Notes under the pieces: generated by a model
What the model saw: the letters and a program-made list of their open reading frames with translations, nothing else
Databases searched by the model: none
Told to the model about the DNA's origin: nothing
Shown: piece after piece, positions 687-14,532 of the stretch
Layout: each line of letters begins with the position of its first letter
How positions within the stretch are numbered: position 1 is the stretch's first letter
Source: a virus
Virus record (IMG/VR): IMGVR_UViG_3300008110_001887
Location: 8,047-30,429 of that record
DNA: 22,383 bases
Strand: one strand, 5' to 3'
Position numbers and translations under genes: made by a program

Positions 687-1057
687 ATCTGTTTCTGCGC
701 AATATCGTTTGAAATAGTTTCTAATAATTCAACTTCATTTTGAAAAACCGCATTTTCAAATTCATCTCTACTCTTTTCAATAGCAGTTTCTACTATCTTA
801 ATTAATTTCGATTGATAGGTTTGCGGAGCCATGTGTGTAAATGTAAATTTATGGTTTGTGATTGTAATACCATCTTCCCACACACGCACCCAATACTCCA
901 ATTTTTTATTAACCAAAAAGTATCTACCGGTAAGCGGAGCCATCTTAATATCGGTTTCGGAATGAGTACACAAATGTGTAATAATATCCAAAATCAATTG
1001 TTCTTTTGAATTTAATTTGTAAGATGGAATTAGTTTGTTTTTTATCCAATTCAACAT
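683..1057 (-). CDS. Hypothetical phage protein (124 aa)
   Basis: A mixed alpha/beta protein with a tryptophan-rich beta-like middle (YWVRVWEDGITITNHKFTF) and a helical C-terminus (KLIKIVETAIEKSRDEFENAV). No family recognised. It lies 18 nt downstream of the 1076-1423 gene, so both are probably transcribed from the promoter at about 1462-1493. Its stop overlaps the next start by 4 nt. Confidence 0.7.
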   Translation of the reverse strand: MLNWIKNKLIPSYKLNSKEQLILDIITHLCTHSETDIKMAPLTGRYFLVNKKLEYWVRVWEDGITITNHKFTFTHMAPQTYQSKLIKIVETAIEKSRDEFENAVFQNEVELLETISNDIAQKQI

Positions 1058-1075
1058 AGTGTTATAATTTAATGA

Positions 1076-1423
1076 TTAAAGATATGATGGTCCGTATGTA
1101 CTATAACGAGCAGTTCCATCCATAATGTTACCTCTCGCATGCTTTGCTGGTGCTTTCCAACTGGCTGGTTTTAACAAGTCACCTTTCTTAATTGGTGCAC
1201 CTTTTAAATCACCATCAACTCTACTGATGAATCCCCAACAGGTTGAACCTGTCCACAATCGAAGGAATTTGTTACCAACTTCCAACACCAAGTGTGTAGG
1301 AGTTAAACTACTTAAATTTTTTGCGTAATACGCATCGATGTCAGCGTTTACTTTTTTAATAAATTCAGAAACGGCTGGATTGTTCTGAAGATAATCTAGG
1401 GATTTTTGTGTCATTACTCTCAT
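1076..1423 (-). CDS. Conserved-looking hypothetical phage protein (115 aa)
   Basis: First gene after a promoter. It has a helical N-terminal half, a beta-like core (THLVLEVGNKFLRLWTGSTC) and a basic C-terminus (SWKAPAKHARGNI and a terminal YGPSYL). The C-terminal pattern resembles uncharacterised phage proteins I have seen, but I cannot assign a function. Two starts are possible, ATG at 1423 or the fourth codon (MTQK) at 1414. The first has CCCCC 7 nt upstream, the spacing seen at other genes here, so I prefer it. Confidence 0.75.
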   Translation of the reverse strand: MRVMTQKSLDYLQNNPAVSEFIKKVNADIDAYYAKNLSSLTPTHLVLEVGNKFLRLWTGSTCWGFISRVDGDLKGAPIKKGDLLKPASWKAPAKHARGNIMDGTARYSTYGPSYL

Positions 1424-1461
1424 TTTATTAGGGGGTTTAGGTTTTAACTCTCACTACTCTG

Positions 1462-1493
1462 TAAAACTACAAAAAAAACTTGGTAATTCCAAG
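1462..1493 (-). promoter_or_regulatory. Bacteroidota-type promoter before the 1423 gene
   Basis: -33 box ACTTG (TTG at 1490-1492), a 20-nt spacer, then TAGTTTTA at 1462-1469. Box order and spacing match five other sites in the window. The spacer carries a run of eight T that is also the tail of a small hairpin. Transcription would start near 1450-1455, just at a TAGTGAGAG sequence. Confidence 0.6.
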
Positions 1494-1494
1494 T
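1471..1494 (-). terminator. Short intrinsic terminator overlapping a promoter
   Basis: On the minus strand ACTTGG (1489-1494) and CCAAGT (1478-1483) form a 6-bp stem with a 5-nt loop, followed at once by a T8 run. It lies 13 nt after the stop of the 1507-1758 gene. The stem is short and only half GC, so termination may be partial. The same bases form the -33 box and spacer of the next promoter. Confidence 0.5.
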
Positions 1495-1506
1495 CTTTTG
1501 TTAAAT

Positions 1507-1758
1507 TTAATTTAAGTATGCGTAATCACACGCTGCCACAATTACTTTGAGGTTCTGCAAACATTGAGTATCTGCATTTGAAATTGCACCTGACAAATCA
1601 TTATCTACTACCGATTCAACGAAACTACCACCCCGTATTCCTTTACCATCTCTTGTCATCATTACCGATGCAATGATATTAATGATATGGGGATTGGTTA
1701 CCTCATATTCCAATGCAAACTCTTGTGCTGCTGATTGATACTGATTTACTATGTCCAT
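1507..1758 (-). CDS. Hypothetical phage protein (83 aa)
   Basis: A small soluble protein with a helical N-terminus (MDIVNQYQSAAQEFALEYEV), a glycine-containing turn (DGKGIRGGSF) and a hydrophobic C-terminal helix (LQNLKVIVAACDYAYL). No known motif. It starts 3 nt after the stop of the 1762-1989 gene and is the last gene before a terminator-like hairpin. Function unknown. Confidence 0.7.
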   Translation of the reverse strand: MDIVNQYQSAAQEFALEYEVTNPHIINIIASVMMTRDGKGIRGGSFVESVVDNDLSGAISNADTQCLQNLKVIVAACDYAYLN

Positions 1759-1761
1759 ATA

Positions 1762-1989
1762 TTATTTTTTATAAAATTGATAAGAGTATAAAGTTTTACG
1801 GTCATCATCGTCAAGTTCATGCTCTACGATTACCGCTTCATTGCCAACAATTTCTTGCAGTTTATTAAAATCAACTCGTCTTCCAAGTGGAAATTTGAGA
1901 AAGTTATTATTAGTACCGAGTACTCTATCTACTACAAACGAACCAATTTCAGTTTCAATTTTTTCAATTACTTCTAAAGAAAAATACAT
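1762..1989 (-). CDS. Hypothetical phage protein (75 aa)
   Basis: A small acidic protein with a helical start (LEVIEKIETEIGSFVV) and a DDDD stretch near the C-terminus. No family recognised. The ATG is preceded at 7 nt by CCCC (minus strand), one of the repeated C-tract leaders of this region, placed right after the stop codon of the preceding gene. Confidence 0.7.
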   Translation of the reverse strand: MYFSLEVIEKIETEIGSFVVDRVLGTNNNFLKFPLGRRVDFNKLQEIVGNEAVIVEHELDDDDRKTLYSYQFYKK

Positions 1990-2001
1990 AGTTTTAGGGG
2001 T

Positions 2002-2409
2002 TTAAAGTTTTTGTATTTTTTCCATTACATCTGTTACATCCTCTGGTCTTAAATATCCAATCACATCGGAAGTAATTGGTGTATCATAGCAGATACTACC
2101 ATCTTTGAGTACTGCCAACTCATACAATCCTATTCTACCACCATAGCTATATGCGTGTCTAACTACACTAGCACCATATCCATTATCAAAATGTTCTCTA
2201 GCCATCTCCCCACCACCAGGGTATGGTTGAAAGTTTAAATCTTTAAATGTCTTCATAACTTCTTCTCTTTCTATTTCCTCTAACTTTATAGCAATTTCTA
2301 AATCTGTTAATTGTTTAGGTTTTTCAATAAACTTATCAAAACCATAACCACCAACTGTAATCTCTGAACCAAACTCATTTACAGGAATTAACTCAATTTT
2401 ATTTTTCAT
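2002..2409 (-). CDS. Hypothetical phage protein (135 aa)
   Basis: An alpha/beta protein with a lysine- and glutamate-rich helix (LTDLEIAIKLEEIEREEVM), glycine-rich turns (PGGGE, YSYGGRIGLYELAV) and a beta-rich C-terminal half that reads like a compact domain. No catalytic motif recognised. It follows the 53-aa gene by 18 nt. Its leader has a CTCC variant of the C-tract about 9 nt before ATG. Confidence 0.7.
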   Translation of the reverse strand: MKNKIELIPVNEFGSEITVGGYGFDKFIEKPKQLTDLEIAIKLEEIEREEVMKTFKDLNFQPYPGGGEMAREHFDNGYGASVVRHAYSYGGRIGLYELAVLKDGSICYDTPITSDVIGYLRPEDVTDVMEKIQKL

Positions 2410-2427
2410 AACTTTATAGGAGTTTAA

Positions 2428-2589
2428 TTAAGCGTTTTCAAATATGTAATCTATTTCCGTTTCATTTAAGGAATCCACTAGCTCTTCCAATTCATCAGCT
2501 GCTTCTAAATTAGCAGAACCTGTCAAATCAATCTGGAAGTTAATCATTTCTTGCAATTGGAAAAATCGTTGTACTCTATCAGTATTCAT
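2428..2589 (-). CDS. Small acidic hypothetical protein (53 aa)
   Basis: ATG at 2589, TAA at 2428-2430. It begins MNTDRVQRFFQLQEM and continues as a helical, strongly acidic peptide ending ETEIDYIFENA. It fills the gap between its neighbours. The leader has CCCCC 6 nt before ATG, directly after the stop of the 2601-2798 gene, and the first codons (ATG AAT ACT) match those of that gene. Function unknown. Confidence 0.65.
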   Translation of the reverse strand: MNTDRVQRFFQLQEMINFQIDLTGSANLEAADELEELVDSLNETEIDYIFENA

Positions 2590-2600
2590 AGTATAGGGGG

Positions 2601-2798
2601 TTAAAGATAATCGTATCGTGAAGCTTCTAATTCGTAATCGTACTCAACTGCGTTATCCACATCCCAATCGTAATCATGGGACTCCTCAACAAATGTGGAG
2701 GTTTCTCCGGAGATGGTATCGAGTCCATCCCAGCACTCCTGGTCGGTGATAGAACCATTCACATAAAGAGCAATCAAATCGTTTAATTCAGTATTCAT
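2601..2798 (-). CDS. Small acidic hypothetical protein (65 aa)
   Basis: Begins MNTELNDLIALYVNGSITDQ and becomes very acidic and aromatic (SHDYDWDVDNAVEYDYELEA). An in-frame ATG further upstream (2870) would give 89 aa, but a promoter-like element (2836-2868) lies between the two ATGs and a CCCC leader sits 7 nt before ATG 2798, so the short form is much more likely. The charge pattern would suit a nucleic-acid mimic or inhibitor, but that is speculation. Confidence 0.7.
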   Translation of the reverse strand: MNTELNDLIALYVNGSITDQECWDGLDTISGETSTFVEESHDYDWDVDNAVEYDYELEASRYDYL

Positions 2799-2835
2799 AT
2801 TTTTAGGGGTTAGTAGTATCTCTCTCATTACCTTA

Positions 2836-3909: not shown

Positions 3910-4434
3910 TTATCGATTAAGTTTCTTTATACATTCATCAACCTTATCTCGCAACATTCCACCATTACCCCAATCACCACTAACCTGTACATGATGCCAT
4001 TGTGGGATACCTAATGATTTGTATTCAAAGTTTAATTGCATATCATCGATAGAAATCCAATTGGTAGGTTTGAATGATTTGACCCATGTCTCAATCTCGC
4101 ATGCCCTATCCCATTGGCCAGATGAACTCAATTTCTTTTTAGGATTGAAATGGGTTGTGGTATCTAATAAGTTCCATCTACCAATACCATAGTATTCGAA
4201 TATCATAGCCAAATCGGGAAGAGTATAATGCTTCCTCCAATCAGATGATACTACTAATCTAGCATCGGTTTGTTTTATGATTTCACTCAATGCATCGCAA
4301 TTCTCCTTATCCCAAGGGTATGGTATTGTAAACTCGTGTGCGGTATTTTTCATTATCTTAACTTTACCATCTCCCCAAGTTCCCCAAGCTAATGGACCAT
4401 CAACATCAATGAATATAATTTTCCCTTCCATCAT
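3910..4434 (-). CDS. HAD-like phosphatase, phage type (174 aa)
   Basis: The protein has the hallmarks of the haloacid dehalogenase superfamily: motif I FIDVDGPL with Asp10 and Asp12, a motif II-like strand VVSSDWRKH (Ser63/Ser64), and motif IV WISIDDM with Asp130 and Asp131. The DWR after motif II and the R..EI..W segment (110-118) resemble the HAD-like proteins grouped with RNA-repair 'Swiss army knife' families and found in phages. By family it would hydrolyse a phosphate ester, possibly on a nucleotide or nucleic-acid end; the substrate is not visible. Two ATGs are adjacent (4434, 4431). It starts 3 nt after the previous stop, and a promoter for the next gene abuts its own stop. Confidence 0.8.
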   Translation of the reverse strand: MMEGKIIFIDVDGPLAWGTWGDGKVKIMKNTAHEFTIPYPWDKENCDALSEIIKQTDARLVVSSDWRKHYTLPDLAMIFEYYGIGRWNLLDTTTHFNPKKKLSSSGQWDRACEIETWVKSFKPTNWISIDDMQLNFEYKSLGIPQWHHVQVSGDWGNGGMLRDKVDECIKKLNR

Positions 4435-5129: not shown

Positions 5130-5160
5130 AAAAAGGAAGAGGGGACAATTTGTCCCCCCG
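5130..5160 (-). terminator. Intrinsic terminator after the AAA+ ATPase gene
   Basis: The minus strand has GGGGAC (5152-5157 region) and GTCCCC (5141-5146) around AAATT, within a longer perfect palindrome at 5141-5157, followed by TCTTCC and T5 at 5130-5134. It lies about 20 nt after the TAA of the ATPase gene. It is the strongest GC stem in the left half of the window. Confidence 0.7.
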
Positions 5161-5178
5161 TCCACCATTAAACTATTA

Positions 5179-6405
5179 CTACCACACAATAGTATTTTCA
5201 GGTTCTTCGTCCTTAACCTCGTTGAAAAGTGTTTCATTAGAATCACTTACAATATATTTTTGAATCAATTGCTTCATAAACACTCTTTCAGAATCCAACC
5301 CACCATCATTAGAGAAGTAAGGTAGGATTGCGATTTCCGCTGCCTCCATAAGTGAGAACCCATCGTAAATCAACCCAGCAGCTTCCACATTGGTACGGGT
5401 AGAAATCATAGTTGAAATCTTACTCGCATCCGTTTTAATCAAATCACGAGTGGTAGATGCAATCTCTGCCAATGCGTTGAGTGAGTAATCATCTGCTTCA
5501 GAATAGATAGTTTTTAACAATTCGTATTCTGATTTCTTATCTAGCAAATCCATTTCGATAGTTACAAATCGGTCCATCATAGCTCTATCCATGATGCGGG
5601 TAGATGTGTATTCATTACCCACGTTAGCCGTAGCGATAAAGGTAACTCCTTCAGCAACTTTCACAATTGGTGAACCATCTGCCTCATCCAATCGTAGGTA
5701 TCGTTGTCCTGCATCCAACACAGTCATTAGGATGTTCCAAGCCTCTGGGTGTGCTCTACTCAATTCATCCAATAGAATGATTGCGTTTGGAGTTTTGATT
5801 GCTCTAACAAATGCGGATTCTGAAAAGAATGTACCCTTAACTTTGTCGAAGTGAGTATTACCAATTAGGGTTGCTCTCGGGTCTTGTGTTGCTCCCAAGT
5901 TGAAGTAGTAATCAGGTCGGTTAAGTGATTTAACCAATGATTGAGCTGCCAATGTTTTACCACATCCAGTCGGTCCAGTCATCATAATGTTCTTACCTCT
6001 AACTGCTGAACGAAGTAGATACTTCCACTTCAATTCATCCATAAACAACCCATTAGGTTTTAGTTGGTAACCTGTGTTGTGGATAAATGATTTGAGTGCC
6101 TCATGTGTTTCAAACACTTCATTTACCGATTCCGCTTTGGTTTCTTCAGTAGAATGAGTCATTTTTTTGAACTCGTCAATTTCAACAAGTTTGTAAGTTG
6201 TTTTGCCAGATTTGGAAACATAACCACGAATGGCTTTGTTTTGGTCAAACGCCGTTTTCATACGGGTTTTTGTAACACCTGCCACTTTTGTAGCAGTTTG
6301 GTTATCAGCGGTGAGCATTGCGAATGTACGTCCTACTTTGATAACTTGGTAGATTTCATTAGTGAAACCTACAATAACATCGGATTTTCTTTTGGTAGTA
6401 GCCAT
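5179..6405 (-). CDS. MoxR/CobS-like AAA+ ATPase (408 aa)
   Basis: Walker A GPTGCGKT at residues 144-151, Walker B IILLDE with Asp213/Glu214, sensor 1 in FIATAN (Asn261), candidate arginine fingers in RAMMDRF (Arg274, Arg279) and a possible sensor 2 in STRTN (Arg338) define an AAA+ ATPase of the MoxR/CbbQ/CobS type. Such ATPases form rings that remodel a partner, usually a VWA-domain protein. A VWA gene lies directly upstream on the same strand. About 115 N-terminal residues precede the ATPase core and look like a small basic beta-rich domain followed by a linker. It has its own promoter (6462-6495) and terminator. Cyanophages carry cobS-like genes, but this is probably not cobalt chelation, since no cobalamin genes are near. 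Confidence 0.88.
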   Translation of the reverse strand: MATTKRKSDVIVGFTNEIYQVIKVGRTFAMLTADNQTATKVAGVTKTRMKTAFDQNKAIRGYVSKSGKTTYKLVEIDEFKKMTHSTEETKAESVNEVFETHEALKSFIHNTGYQLKPNGLFMDELKWKYLLRSAVRGKNIMMTGPTGCGKTLAAQSLVKSLNRPDYYFNLGATQDPRATLIGNTHFDKVKGTFFSESAFVRAIKTPNAIILLDELSRAHPEAWNILMTVLDAGQRYLRLDEADGSPIVKVAEGVTFIATANVGNEYTSTRIMDRAMMDRFVTIEMDLLDKKSEYELLKTIYSEADDYSLNALAEIASTTRDLIKTDASKISTMISTRTNVEAAGLIYDGFSLMEAAEIAILPYFSNDGGLDSERVFMKQLIQKYIVSDSNETLFNEVKDEEPENTIVW

Positions 6406-6461
6406 AATGGTATATTTAAGTGTTTTAGAGTTTAAATGGAGAACCGTTCCCTCATTGTTTA

Positions 6462-6495
6462 CACAATATATGAAGAAAAATCGGTTTTTCCAAGC
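6462..6495 (-). promoter_or_regulatory. Promoter of the AAA+ ATPase gene
   Basis: GCTTG with TTG at 6491-6493, a 20-nt spacer, then TATATTGTG at 6462-6470. Both boxes and the spacing are the same as in the promoter of the VWA gene, although the spacers differ. About 10 nt downstream is AATGAGGGAAC, a variant of the TGAGAGATA element. The leader is about 50 nt long. Confidence 0.65.
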
Positions 6496-6526
6496 GTTTT
6501 AGATAATATTTTTTTAATTAATGAGA

Positions 6527-6559
6527 TGTGAAAATGGGGAATTTCACCCCAAGTTCACA
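6527..6559 (-). terminator. Long two-part hairpin after the VWA gene
   Basis: TGTGAA (6554-6559) pairs with TTCACA (6527-6532), and inside it TGGGG pairs with CCCCA around TGAAATT. The stem is long and GC-rich in its inner part but lacks a T run afterwards. It could be a factor-assisted terminator or an mRNA 3' end stabiliser. Confidence 0.5.
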
Positions 6560-6572
6560 GGCTTTCCGAGCC
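6560..6572 (-). promoter_or_regulatory. Small hairpin abutting the VWA stop codon
   Basis: GGCT and AGCC form a 4-bp stem around CGGAA, 1 nt after the TAA. Its GCTCGGAAA stretch (6563-6571) is the exact complement of TTTCCGAGC in the leader of the same gene (8804-8812), so leader and 3' end could pair. Confidence 0.4.
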
Positions 6573-6573
6573 A

Positions 6574-8802
6574 TTATTTTTGTAAGAATAATTCGTTCAT
6601 TGTTCTGGCAACATCAAACATATTTGCTACATTTACTGATTTTGCTCCCTTACCATAACATTGTTCGAAGATTCTCCAAGCTGCAGATTGTTTAACATCA
6701 CCATGATAATCACTAATAAAGTAAGATAGAGTCTTAATACCTGCTTCTTGCATTTTATTAATCTGCTTTCTAGTATGTTTAGCAGCTGCCATCCCACCAT
6801 AGTTAATTTCATCATCATTTCTGTTAATGGAAAAACAAGGTTCACCATCGGAGAAGTTTAAGAAATATGAATCCGAATCATTATTAGATGGAATCAATTG
6901 CTTCTGAATTGCTTCGAAACACAAACCTTCTGGTGTGGTGTTGTTTGCCTGTAAGATACTCATGTTCTTACAGAACTCTTTGAAACTTTTTTTAGTAGAA
7001 TCATGTACAAGTGCGATATAAGGTAATCCACCATAACTCGAATCCGTAGAACGAATCGATACTTGCACATTGATGTTTCTTGCCATCTCACAAGCTTTAA
7101 CAATCGCCACAGTCGAAGTAACTGCTTTTCTTAACTTCTCACCACTCATTGAGCCAGAGTAATCGATTGATATGTGTAGGTTAGCTTTCTTATACTGGTC
7201 AACCTCACGAGTGTAAAACACGTTGCTGTTATCGTATCCCAAAGAAGCAATCATTCTACCATCAATCTTACCTTTAGTCAGTCTGGAGTAGATGGTTTCA
7301 CGACTCTCATTACGAACTTGCAATTTCTTACCCAACATAGTTCCTAATACAACACCACTCTTAACTTCTTCTTCTGCCCAACGATACGCTTTCTTTGTAC
7401 TCCAATCCAATGAACTGAATGGGAATGATTCATCATTGATTAATGCTTCAGTTAGATTTTTAACTACAATACAATCTACACCCTTTCCAATAGGTCTACC
7501 ACGCTCATCAACATACTCATTACCAACACGTACCATTTCAGTGCCTGATTCGTTTATGTTTTCTAATTTTACAAGTTCACCTTTCTGAAGTTTTTTCTTT
7601 CTAACTTTATTGTTTAGAAAATCCTTCTGTTTTTGGAATTTGTTACTCAATTGTTTGGATGCAGATTTGGTTGGTTTACCGTTGGTATCGGAATCGGATG
7701 ATTGAGAATCAGAATCACTATCTGAATCAGATTCCTCTCCTTCGATACCTTCGGAACTGGCATTCACACCACCTTGTTCATCTGATTTCTCATCACCACT
7801 CTGTCCACCACCTTGTCCTTCTTCTCCATTGGAATCATTACTTTGCTCACCATTTTCTCCATTGGATTGTTCTGATTCTGATTCAGAGATTGGTACATAT
7901 TTAAGGATTTCAGACATCACATTAATTGCCAACATAAATGCATCTTCGGTGGATTTTAATCGGCCGATGTTTTTCAAATCAATCATACGATAGATTGCTC
8001 TCAATCCTTTCAACTTACTCAAATCAGTTTTCTCATTGTGTAAGTTAATGATACGGAACATATACGATTCGAAATTCTCATCAGTATACTCGTCTGAAAT
8101 AACACCTTTGGTAATTACTTTATCATTGAAGTAATAATCGTACATAGATGTATAATAATCTCTATATCCAGGTGCAGTTGTAAATATATGATAATCAATT
8201 CTTCGGTCCTCAATCCAATTGGTTAGGTTACCAATTAAACCATTAACTTCATAAGTTAATCTACCATACGAACCAACTTTACCGGTAGATAAATACATTT
8301 CTTTGAATCCAGCATAGTATTTTAGATTGCTCAACAATCTATCTATTTTGTAATCGATAGAAAATGTGGGGTCAGCAATACTATTTTCATAAGAAATATA
8401 TGCCCAGTCCACTTCTTGCCACGCTTTACCCATCTCTTCTAGCAATTTGAAGTCAGAAAGTACAATGTGAGAACCTTCGTGTAATGCCAACCCAACGGAT
8501 ACATCAAAGTTATCATTTACATCCGCTGATAGAATTACCTGCTTACCATCGGTTTGGGAAGAGGATTTACTCGCAAAGGTAACAGGAATGTTCTTTTGTG
8601 TTACAATTTGAACGAAGTTTGCAATTGCTCTCCTAGTCGCGGATAGCTTATAGAGGTCATTTGTTTTCTTAAATGCCTCCAATTTGGTGGAATCCATATC
8701 GGAATATGTATCCAAATAATCGTATGATGTGTTGTAATCATCATACCAAAAGGAACTGGCTGATTTCTTTGAATCACCCTTAAATTTGTTGTACCAACTC
8801 AT
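6574..8802 (-). CDS. HExxH and VWA domain protein, CobT-like partner of the AAA+ ATPase (742 aa)
   Basis: N-terminal region (1-300): a metallopeptidase-like helix with HEGSH at 108-112 and a downstream NWIEDRRID (Glu198/Asp199) that could supply a third ligand. Residues about 306-375 are an acidic Ser/Asp/Glu/Gly-rich linker (EESDSDSDSDSQ). C-terminal region (about 540-740): a VWA domain with a complete MIDAS, DYSGS (Asp547, Ser549, Ser551), Thr622/623 and SDG (Asp652). This architecture is that of CobT/CoxE-like VWA proteins that work with MoxR/CobS ATPases, with the N-terminal part resembling VWA-associated metallopeptidase-like domains. Peptidase activity is possible but unproven. The start has its own promoter; the leader is about 35 nt. 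Whether it acts in virion assembly or against the host is open. Confidence 0.85.
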   Translation of the reverse strand: MSWYNKFKGDSKKSASSFWYDDYNTSYDYLDTYSDMDSTKLEAFKKTNDLYKLSATRRAIANFVQIVTQKNIPVTFASKSSSQTDGKQVILSADVNDNFDVSVGLALHEGSHIVLSDFKLLEEMGKAWQEVDWAYISYENSIADPTFSIDYKIDRLLSNLKYYAGFKEMYLSTGKVGSYGRLTYEVNGLIGNLTNWIEDRRIDYHIFTTAPGYRDYYTSMYDYYFNDKVITKGVISDEYTDENFESYMFRIINLHNEKTDLSKLKGLRAIYRMIDLKNIGRLKSTEDAFMLAINVMSEILKYVPISESESEQSNGENGEQSNDSNGEEGQGGGQSGDEKSDEQGGVNASSEGIEGEESDSDSDSDSQSSDSDTNGKPTKSASKQLSNKFQKQKDFLNNKVRKKKLQKGELVKLENINESGTEMVRVGNEYVDERGRPIGKGVDCIVVKNLTEALINDESFPFSSLDWSTKKAYRWAEEEVKSGVVLGTMLGKKLQVRNESRETIYSRLTKGKIDGRMIASLGYDNSNVFYTREVDQYKKANLHISIDYSGSMSGEKLRKAVTSTVAIVKACEMARNINVQVSIRSTDSSYGGLPYIALVHDSTKKSFKEFCKNMSILQANNTTPEGLCFEAIQKQLIPSNNDSDSYFLNFSDGEPCFSINRNDDEINYGGMAAAKHTRKQINKMQEAGIKTLSYFISDYHGDVKQSAAWRIFEQCYGKGAKSVNVANMFDVARTMNELFLQK

Positions 8803-8844
8803 AGCTCGGAAATTTATTTGTTGTTAGTTAATTACTGATTGTTC

Positions 8845-8878
8845 CACAATATACGACTAATTTGGCAAATAAACAAGC
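8845..8878 (-). promoter_or_regulatory. Promoter of the VWA gene
   Basis: GCTTG with TTG at 8874-8876, a 20-nt spacer, then TATATTGTG at 8845-8853. The boxes are identical in sequence and distance to those of the ATPase promoter. It lies about 24 nt after the stop of the 56-aa gene. Confidence 0.65.
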
Positions 8879-9180: not shown

Positions 9181-9361
9181 GTTACTCCCCACCCCCGAGA
9201 CAGGAGGGTTATACGAGTTTCAAAGGTTACCATTTCATTCATAGCGTCCGTTCCGTCATTCGTTTCCGAATCGTTACAATCTTTTACTTATAACACCCTA
9301 TGTGTATAGTACCCTTACTTCTAGTTCCCAATCGAGTCCCTTCGTCATAAGATGTTATATG
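9181..9361 (-). other. Structured non-coding stretch between tRNA elements
   Basis: No plausible gene. On the minus strand I see a hairpin with a GAAA tetraloop (ATTCG/CGAAT, 9258-9271), a second with a 7-nt loop (ACCCTC/GGGGGT, 9191-9209), and a 7-bp long-range match TATAACA (9353-9359) with TGTTATA (9289-9295). The class of RNA is not recognised. A plus-strand frame crosses it but has no coding character. Confidence 0.4.
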
Positions 9362-9446
9362 CAGAGGAGGAGGGATTCGAACCCCCGTTACCTTTCAGTA
9401 AAACGGTTTTCAAGACCGCCGCGTTCGACCGCTCTGCCACTCCTCT
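9362..9446 (-). tRNA. tRNA-Ser (UGA)
   Basis: An 85-nt class II cloverleaf: acceptor AGAGGAG/CTCCTCT, D arm with AGCGGTCGAA, anticodon stem GCGGT/ACCGT with loop CTTGAAA (anticodon TGA), a 16-nt variable arm with TTAC/GTAA, and T arm GGGGG-TTCGAAT-CCCTC. Discriminator G; CCA is not encoded. It reads serine UCA codons. Its first base is the last base of the stop codon of the SGNH hydrolase gene, so it is processed out of that mRNA. Confidence 0.93.
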
Positions 9447-13833: not shown

Positions 13834-14532
13834 TTATTTTCCCCAATGTTTTTCTCGGAGTTCGTAAATATCAATTGGTTCTCGTTTCATATGTGAACCC
13901 TGATTAAAATATGCACCCTTTTTCAAATAACCACCTAAAAGGTTTCTTCTAAATCTATTAGAGTTATTTGGTTCTGAACCATGAACGGTATGTGAATGAA
14001 GTAAAACTACTTCCCCTTTACGAAGGTAACCTTCTACCTTTTTAAAATCATGTCCTTCTGGCATTACACAAGGTTTACCTCTTTCGTTTCTCCAAAACTT
14101 GGGATTACTTTTAGTTCTTTCTTCATCCACTTCAATTGGTAGAACTGGTAATCGATGTGAACCTTCATAGTTCCACACTGCACCATTTTCGGGGTCATGA
14201 TTATCTAATGCCAAAGCTGTATTGATAATTTCATTATGTCCACAACCAGTATAGAATGCGTTTTGATGCATATCTCTACCCAACTGTCCCGGTGGTTTGA
14301 AATATGACCAAGTTTGTAAACCTACCAATTCACCTTCCATCAAGAACTCCATTGCCTCGATAAGTTTTGGATGTGCAAAAATTGATTCTAATTTTGGTGA
14401 TAATTTATGTGGATACGCAAACGGGTCCCATTCTCCCCACTCTTCACCATTTTCTTTGGTAGTTAGAGCTCGTTCTTGTCGTAATCGTTCTAATTCATTG
14501 TTGATTTCATCACATTGCTCCTCGGTAAGGTG
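13834..14532 (-). CDS. PhyH-family 2OG-Fe(II) oxygenase, start missing
   Basis: The frame from 14532 to 13834 reads as one PhyH-type domain: LTEEQCDEINNELERLRQ and WGEWDPFAYPHKLSPK, then the double-stranded beta-helix core with MHQNAFY, ENGAVWNYEGSHRLPV and HTVHGSEPNNSNRFRR (His124, Arg135 counted from the internal Met at 14352). It would oxidise an unknown substrate with iron and 2-oxoglutarate. A TAA (14533-14535) precedes the frame and there is no ATG, GTG or TTG before the internal Met at 14352, so about 20 N-terminal residues seem lost. The usual first iron-ligand motif HxD is H-Q-N here. It lies 24 nt after the tail gene. It may be a remnant or a changed enzyme. Confidence 0.65.
   Translation of the reverse strand, partial: HLTEEQCDEINNELERLRQERALTTKENGEEWGEWDPFAYPHKLSPKLESIFAHPKLIEAMEFLMEGELVGLQTWSYFKPPGQLGRDMHQNAFYTGCGHNEIINTALALDNHDPENGAVWNYEGSHRLPVLPIEVDEERTKSNPKFWRNERGKPCVMPEGHDFKKVEGYLRKGEVVLLHSHTVHGSEPNNSNRFRRNLLGGYLKKGAYFNQGSHMKREPIDIYELREKHWGK

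Follow-up and report, generated by a model that had tools for sequence, protein, structure and literature searches.

Two adjacent genes of a virus, one for an AAA+ ATPase and one for a VWA protein, were analyzed in a 22,383-nucleotide (nt) stretch of DNA (the window) which forms part of the 30,429-base IMG/VR virus record IMGVR_UViG_3300008110_001887 (positions 8,047 to 30,429). It is fairly probable that they specify a MoxR-VWA remodelling machine which carries a built-in zinc protease, has a virion protein as its client, and is subject to an additional layer of control in which the mRNA of the ATPase gene folds back on itself. The phage pair of a MoxR ATPase and a metallopeptidase-VWA protein is known already; the complementarity between the end and the start of the AAA gene is new. 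Coordinates are window positions unless a locus (L followed by a number) is named, and the features of the window described here are all on the minus strand. The window record is a contig of an uncultured virus, as are nearly all of its relatives, and many of these contigs are fragments.

The VWA gene (6574..8802) and the AAA+ gene (5179..6405) are arranged head to tail, the latter 168 nt downstream. Based on matches to Pfam AAA_5 (1e-16), to CbbQ_C (above cut-off), to PHROG 249 (phage CobS, 3e-27) and, in PDB, to midasin, NorQ, CbbQ and CobS (CobS at 2e-6), the 408-residue product of the AAA+ gene was identified as a CobS/MoxR-type ATPase, in which GPTGCGKT (Walker A), ILLDE (Walker B), IATAN (sensor) and MDRF can be recognized. 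Alignments and fold comparison divided the 742-residue VWA protein into a zincin-like N-terminal domain, an acidic Ser/Glu linker and a VWA part with a metal ion-dependent adhesion site (MIDAS). The MIDAS motif DYSGS (residues 547-551, 7150..7164) contributes D547, S549 and S551, which together with T623 and D652 were invariant in 29 aligned relatives. An initial annotation, made from the letters of this DNA, had named both open reading frames, the Walker and sensor motifs, a full MIDAS and an N-terminal HEGSH motif, all of which were confirmed.

The HEGSH motif occupies residues 108-112 (8467..8481). HE[GA]SH followed downstream by ED was kept in 111/111 distinct proteins with complete N-termini, and E198-D199 of the sequence IEDRRID (8206..8211), the candidate third metal ligand, was invariant in both alignments (A1 and A2). 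The gluzincin pattern of HExxH and a downstream Glu is present as H108, E109, H112 and E198, each of them invariant. This invariance, and the finding of homologues of the two genes together, run counter to the two outcomes that the initial annotation had named as refuting its reading. In four remote phage homologues, labelled CobT, peptidase or hypothetical protein, the motif reads HESAH, HEVGH, HETLH and HEGCH, in each case followed by EDxR[IV][DE]. HExxH was absent from 4/4 cellular CobT proteins encoded near CobS.

The structure of the N-terminal domain was predicted with a local distance difference test score (pLDDT) of 92. Its best viral fold matches were phage CobT-like proteins (E 6e-5), and a second examination of PDB gave a list topped by zincins (BlaR1, abylysin, selecase, M1 aminopeptidase, LTA4 hydrolase and ArdC). 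The CobT structure 9uka, which was matched by sequence, was not among the fold matches of this domain. At the profile level the phage N-terminus matched cellular CobT weakly (E 0.13), and a common origin is therefore not claimed. The VWA part was closest by fold to the VWA domain of NorD (NorQ-NorD complexes, E 9e-8) and to the Rea1 MIDAS. Judged from conserved residues and the predicted model, the N-terminal domain is probably zincin-like in fold, its HExxH + Glu site being intact, and may bind metal and act as a protease. Pfam matches on the acidic linker (IMUP, for example) were dismissed as low-complexity artefacts, and a weak similarity of the N-terminal alignment to the mitofusin profile was attributed to chance.

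Relatives were collected by scanning viral contigs with the ATPase (407 found, of which the best 80 were kept) and with the VWA alignment (397 found). In 112/112 viral loci with both genes, some of them overlapping or repeated stretches of one contig, the two were on one strand; the VWA gene came first in 94, and the median gap was 290 nt. As the loci are related to one another, they do not count as independent events. All of the records carrying the ATPase (17/17) had the VWA gene. In the other direction, the ATPase was present in 7/13 VWA-bearing records, most of which had been chosen for having no nearby ATPase (one of the seven is a fragment at a contig end), and the 6/13 without it are contigs of 38-70 kb. 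The co-inherited pair with a peptidase-like N-terminus that the initial annotation had put forward is borne out by these counts. The combination, whose job was unfamiliar to that annotation, is not an unknown one, such pairs having been published by Iyer et al. 2021 and Liu et al. 2021. The pair also occurs on contigs binned into cellular metagenome-assembled genomes, L097 (Flavobacteriaceae) and L096 (Nitrosopelagicus), which are probably viral contigs binned with their hosts or misbinned.

The complementarity of the AAA gene was measured between its leader (-28 to +3 of the start) and its tail (60 nt after its own stop), with partners swapped among loci as the null and the first in-frame ATG taken as the start codon in relatives. 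In 74 non-redundant loci the longest leader:tail match averaged 7.26 nt, against 5.65 nt when permuted (z 12.6), and a match of at least 9 nt was found at 30% of AAA loci versus 3.7% on permutation. Shifted control windows gave z 0.8-2.9. Duplex energies showed the same specificity, with z -10.6 for the ATPase gene versus +1.1 for 250 further genes from those loci. As the signal had been found by inspecting the data, weight is carried by the same-locus controls, in which the ATPase leader favoured the tail of its own gene (p 2e-9) and that tail in turn favoured this leader (p 3e-5), and by 19 held-out loci, which agreed (z 2.9, 6/1000 permutations).

In the modelled window mRNA the post-stop element AGUUUAAUGGUGGAC (5160..5174), which the family-wide statistics likewise point to, may pair with either of two leader sites. 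One is the start-region site ACCAUUA (6405..6411, positions -6 to 0), which pairs with UAAUGGU in the tail at P about 0.23, and the second, competing site is GUUCUCCAUUUAAACU (6429..6444, positions -39 to -24; P about 0.76). The paired words differ between clades: ACCATTA/TAATGGT is found in the window, L010 and L012, ACTATTA/TAATAGT in L013 and L014, AAATCACCA/TGGTGATTT in L119, GAGGTTACC/GGTAACCTC in L067 and L084, and AACCCCTTAA/TTAAGGGGTT in L125. In phages using a Shine-Dalgarno (SD) sequence the pair is AGAAAAAGGAG/CTCCTTTTTCT, in a hairpin loop (L082). No convincing leader:tail pair was seen in the distant phage cobS genes of S-RIM32, OC and BS162P1.

A separate complementary pair of 9 nt brackets the VWA gene, with TTTCCGAGC directly before the start codon (leader word TTTCCGAGCT, 8803..8812) and GCTCGGAAA just after the stop (6563..6571). 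Word searches placed both words in 12 loci and neither in 123, and the two loci with only the tail word are 5'-truncated. In 11/11 VWA mRNAs tested the leader had its best hybridisation site in the tail, and whole-mRNA partition functions gave 0.64-1.00 per base pair in 5/5 VWA mRNAs (0.69-1.00 in that of the window). Taken together, the VWA genes gave no leader:tail signal (z 0.7), the pair being confined to the TTTCCGAG clade, which includes the window. A 14-nt version of the leader was also sought across viral sequences; 51 of the 65 matches were not at VWA genes, none with the tail word within 6 kb, and they were taken as chance. The tail word also lies in a small hairpin of its own, G(G)CU-CGGAA-AGC(C), seen at L010 7831-7880, at L012 7756-7800 and in other VWA tails, which could compete with the long-range VWA pairing.

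It is likely that, in a wide group of phages, the CobS/MoxR-type ATPase is under the control of a conserved fold-back in cis whose sequence changes from clade to clade, and that one clade has added an independent pair around the VWA-protease gene. The 3' end of the AAA mRNA would fold back on its own translation start, the finished full-length transcript would be poorly translated, and ATPase output would thereby be limited; the VWA mRNA of the one clade would contribute its separate pair. The pairing of the icaR 3' and 5' untranslated regions (PMC3868564) and the fold-back inhibition of hok are known parallels, in which the mRNA 3' end is likewise complementary to its own translation start. 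The AAA arrangement differs in that it recurs throughout a family of phage genes while the sequences themselves are unrelated, and its effect on translation is a predicted one. If correct, the fold-back would be a 3'-to-5' self-pairing conserved across a whole phage gene family despite sequence change; a literature search found no report of such conserved self-pairing in a phage gene family.

At the protein level, the ATPase ring would act through the VWA protein as a chaperone/co-chaperone couple, and the MIDAS, to judge from NorQ-NorD and Rea1, may hold an acidic residue that belongs to the motor or to the substrate. In those systems too a MoxR-type ATPase engages a VWA/MIDAS partner, and by fold they came closest to the VWA part; neither NorD nor Rea1 is known to have a metallopeptidase-like domain of this kind. 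With the HExxH + Glu site intact in its zincin-like domain, the complex probably remodels a protein and also cleaves it, and we infer that its client is most likely a virion protein undergoing assembly or maturation. Virion assembly was proposed by Iyer et al. 2021 (PMC7824862) for the MoxR AAA+ and metallopeptidase-fused vWA proteins of group 2.2 jumbo phages. The window pair, compared with ASV44728/ASV44729 through their description, has the same composition, and it agrees in the co-occurrence of the two genes (112/112 loci, 17/17 records) and in the N-terminal HExxH+ED (111/111, zincin matches at Z <5). It is unlike that pair in the Bacteroidota-type promoters of its virus and in the complementarity at the gene ends, which is not mentioned in the portion of that account describing the pair.

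Several points weigh against the combined picture of a protease-bearing machine with a virion client and a fold-back mRNA. A Foldseek comparison of the N-terminal model with PDB gave no individually significant match (best E 2.3), and the zincin matches listed above scored Z 4.1-4.9, all below 5. No link of the pair to virion genes was found, the tail genes being distant in relatives, and some distant relatives encode a B12-dependent ribonucleotide reductase (RNR), so that a link to cobalamin is possible. As to the complementarity, the held-out set is small and one shifted control window was also raised (z 1.9); about 60% of AAA loci are without a perfect 8-bp leader:tail match; and secondary-structure models ignore ribosomes and proteins and are poorly calibrated for long-range pairings.

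The two published proposals disagree on the role of phage CobS/CobT-like pairs. Liu et al. 2021 (PMC8651126) filed them as cobST, stating that CobT had been mistakenly annotated as a peptidase, and in that role, which they proposed, the pair would join a host CobN in inserting cobalt and would raise the cobalamin supply during infection. Several features fit: a CobS-like ATPase adjoins a CobT-like VWA protein, as in the cyanophage pairs of cobS and a 'peptidase', PHROG 249 and CobT_C similarity are found, phage CobT proteins are the nearest folds of the N-terminal domain, HExxH..EDxR is also present in the S-RIM32 'peptidase' and the Ochrobactrum phage CobT, and the reductase of the distant relatives L105 and L106 is adenosylcobalamin-dependent. 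We nevertheless regard cobalt insertion as improbable. A search for CobN in 17 relatives found none, although that of the host could serve; the near relatives L103 and L104 have a class I RNR instead; and the CobT family profiles (PF06213/PF11775) fell below their curated cut-offs (CobT_C 16.5 bits against 21, CobT 9.5 against 26.1). Because HExxH+ED is kept by every phage homologue examined and HExxH is absent from the four cellular CobT proteins, a remodelling protease is favoured over a cobalt chelatase. The conserved residues of the active site speak against dismissing the peptidase label as a mere mistake, and they offer a single residue to test. The pair could also be directed at host proteins, in takeover or counter-defence, instead of at the virion; its genes do lie among small genes of unknown function and not in the tail operon, and MoxR-vWA couples serve bacterial conflict systems as well (PMC7159879). 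This seems unlikely, though less so than the chelatase, as a fast arms race sits poorly with the wide conservation, over a large set of phages, of the two genes and their active-site residues, and PADLOC models matched the ATPase weakly and partially and the VWA protein not at all. The L105 and L106 reductases are of the monomeric type (TIGR02505 above cut-off) and are encoded at 553-2565 and 802-2808 (minus strand) of those loci, respectively.

For the complementary ends, a function in transcription termination or in mRNA stability (end protection) rather than in translation is conceivable but doubtful. The tail sites are beside the 3' hairpin, and in several phages inside its loop, as such a function would have it, but the complementarity is concentrated from -28 to +3 at the start codon, and at the SD in SD-using phages, a position for which stability has no need. 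The words flanking the VWA gene could alternatively be DNA inverted repeats for recombination or protein binding, and being nearly invariant in the VWA clade they cannot show base-pair covariation. Their placement, one word lying precisely in the interval from promoter to start codon and the other directly past the stop, makes this explanation rather implausible, as does the AAA gene, where the same arrangement is built of different sequences in different clades.

Each of the two genes is preceded by the box GCTTG-N20-TATATTGTG, at 8845..8878 for the VWA gene and at 6462..6495 for the AAA gene. These are its only two occurrences in the window, where none is expected by chance, in agreement with the initial annotation, which had noted boxes common to both genes at equal spacing; the complementary ends of each gene were not among its observations. 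Equivalent boxes were found at matching positions in relatives, several reading TTG-N20-TAnnTTTG-like, which is the consensus form of Bacteroidota promoters; because the box has this form and is present in relatives, a Bacteroidota host is suggested and not a private regulon. The further claim that each gene is closed by its own hairpin stands for the AAA gene, which is followed by a clear intrinsic-terminator-like hairpin (5139..5159; terminator scan and RNA folding). It is weaker for the VWA gene, downstream of which the RNA folds better than shuffled sequences (z -3.1) and the scan found no minus-strand terminator. Nor is the pair next to the tail operon, as had been stated: about 6 kb with one tRNA and many small genes lie between them in the window, and in the three large relatives where tail-gene homologues were found these are roughly 90-150 kb away.

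The tRNA gene is tRNA-Ser(TGA) (9361-9446), situated between the two genes of the pair and the small genes upstream of them, and was the only family matched in Rfam at the gathering threshold. Genes for a HAD_SAK_2 phosphatase-like protein (3910-4434; Pfam 3e-19), whose domain is named for RNA-repair proteins, and for a PhyH-type 2-oxoglutarate dioxygenase (13834-14352; Pfam 6e-16) were also identified. In Microcystis phage Mel-JY01 an annotated prolyl 4-hydroxylase gene immediately precedes the VWA gene.

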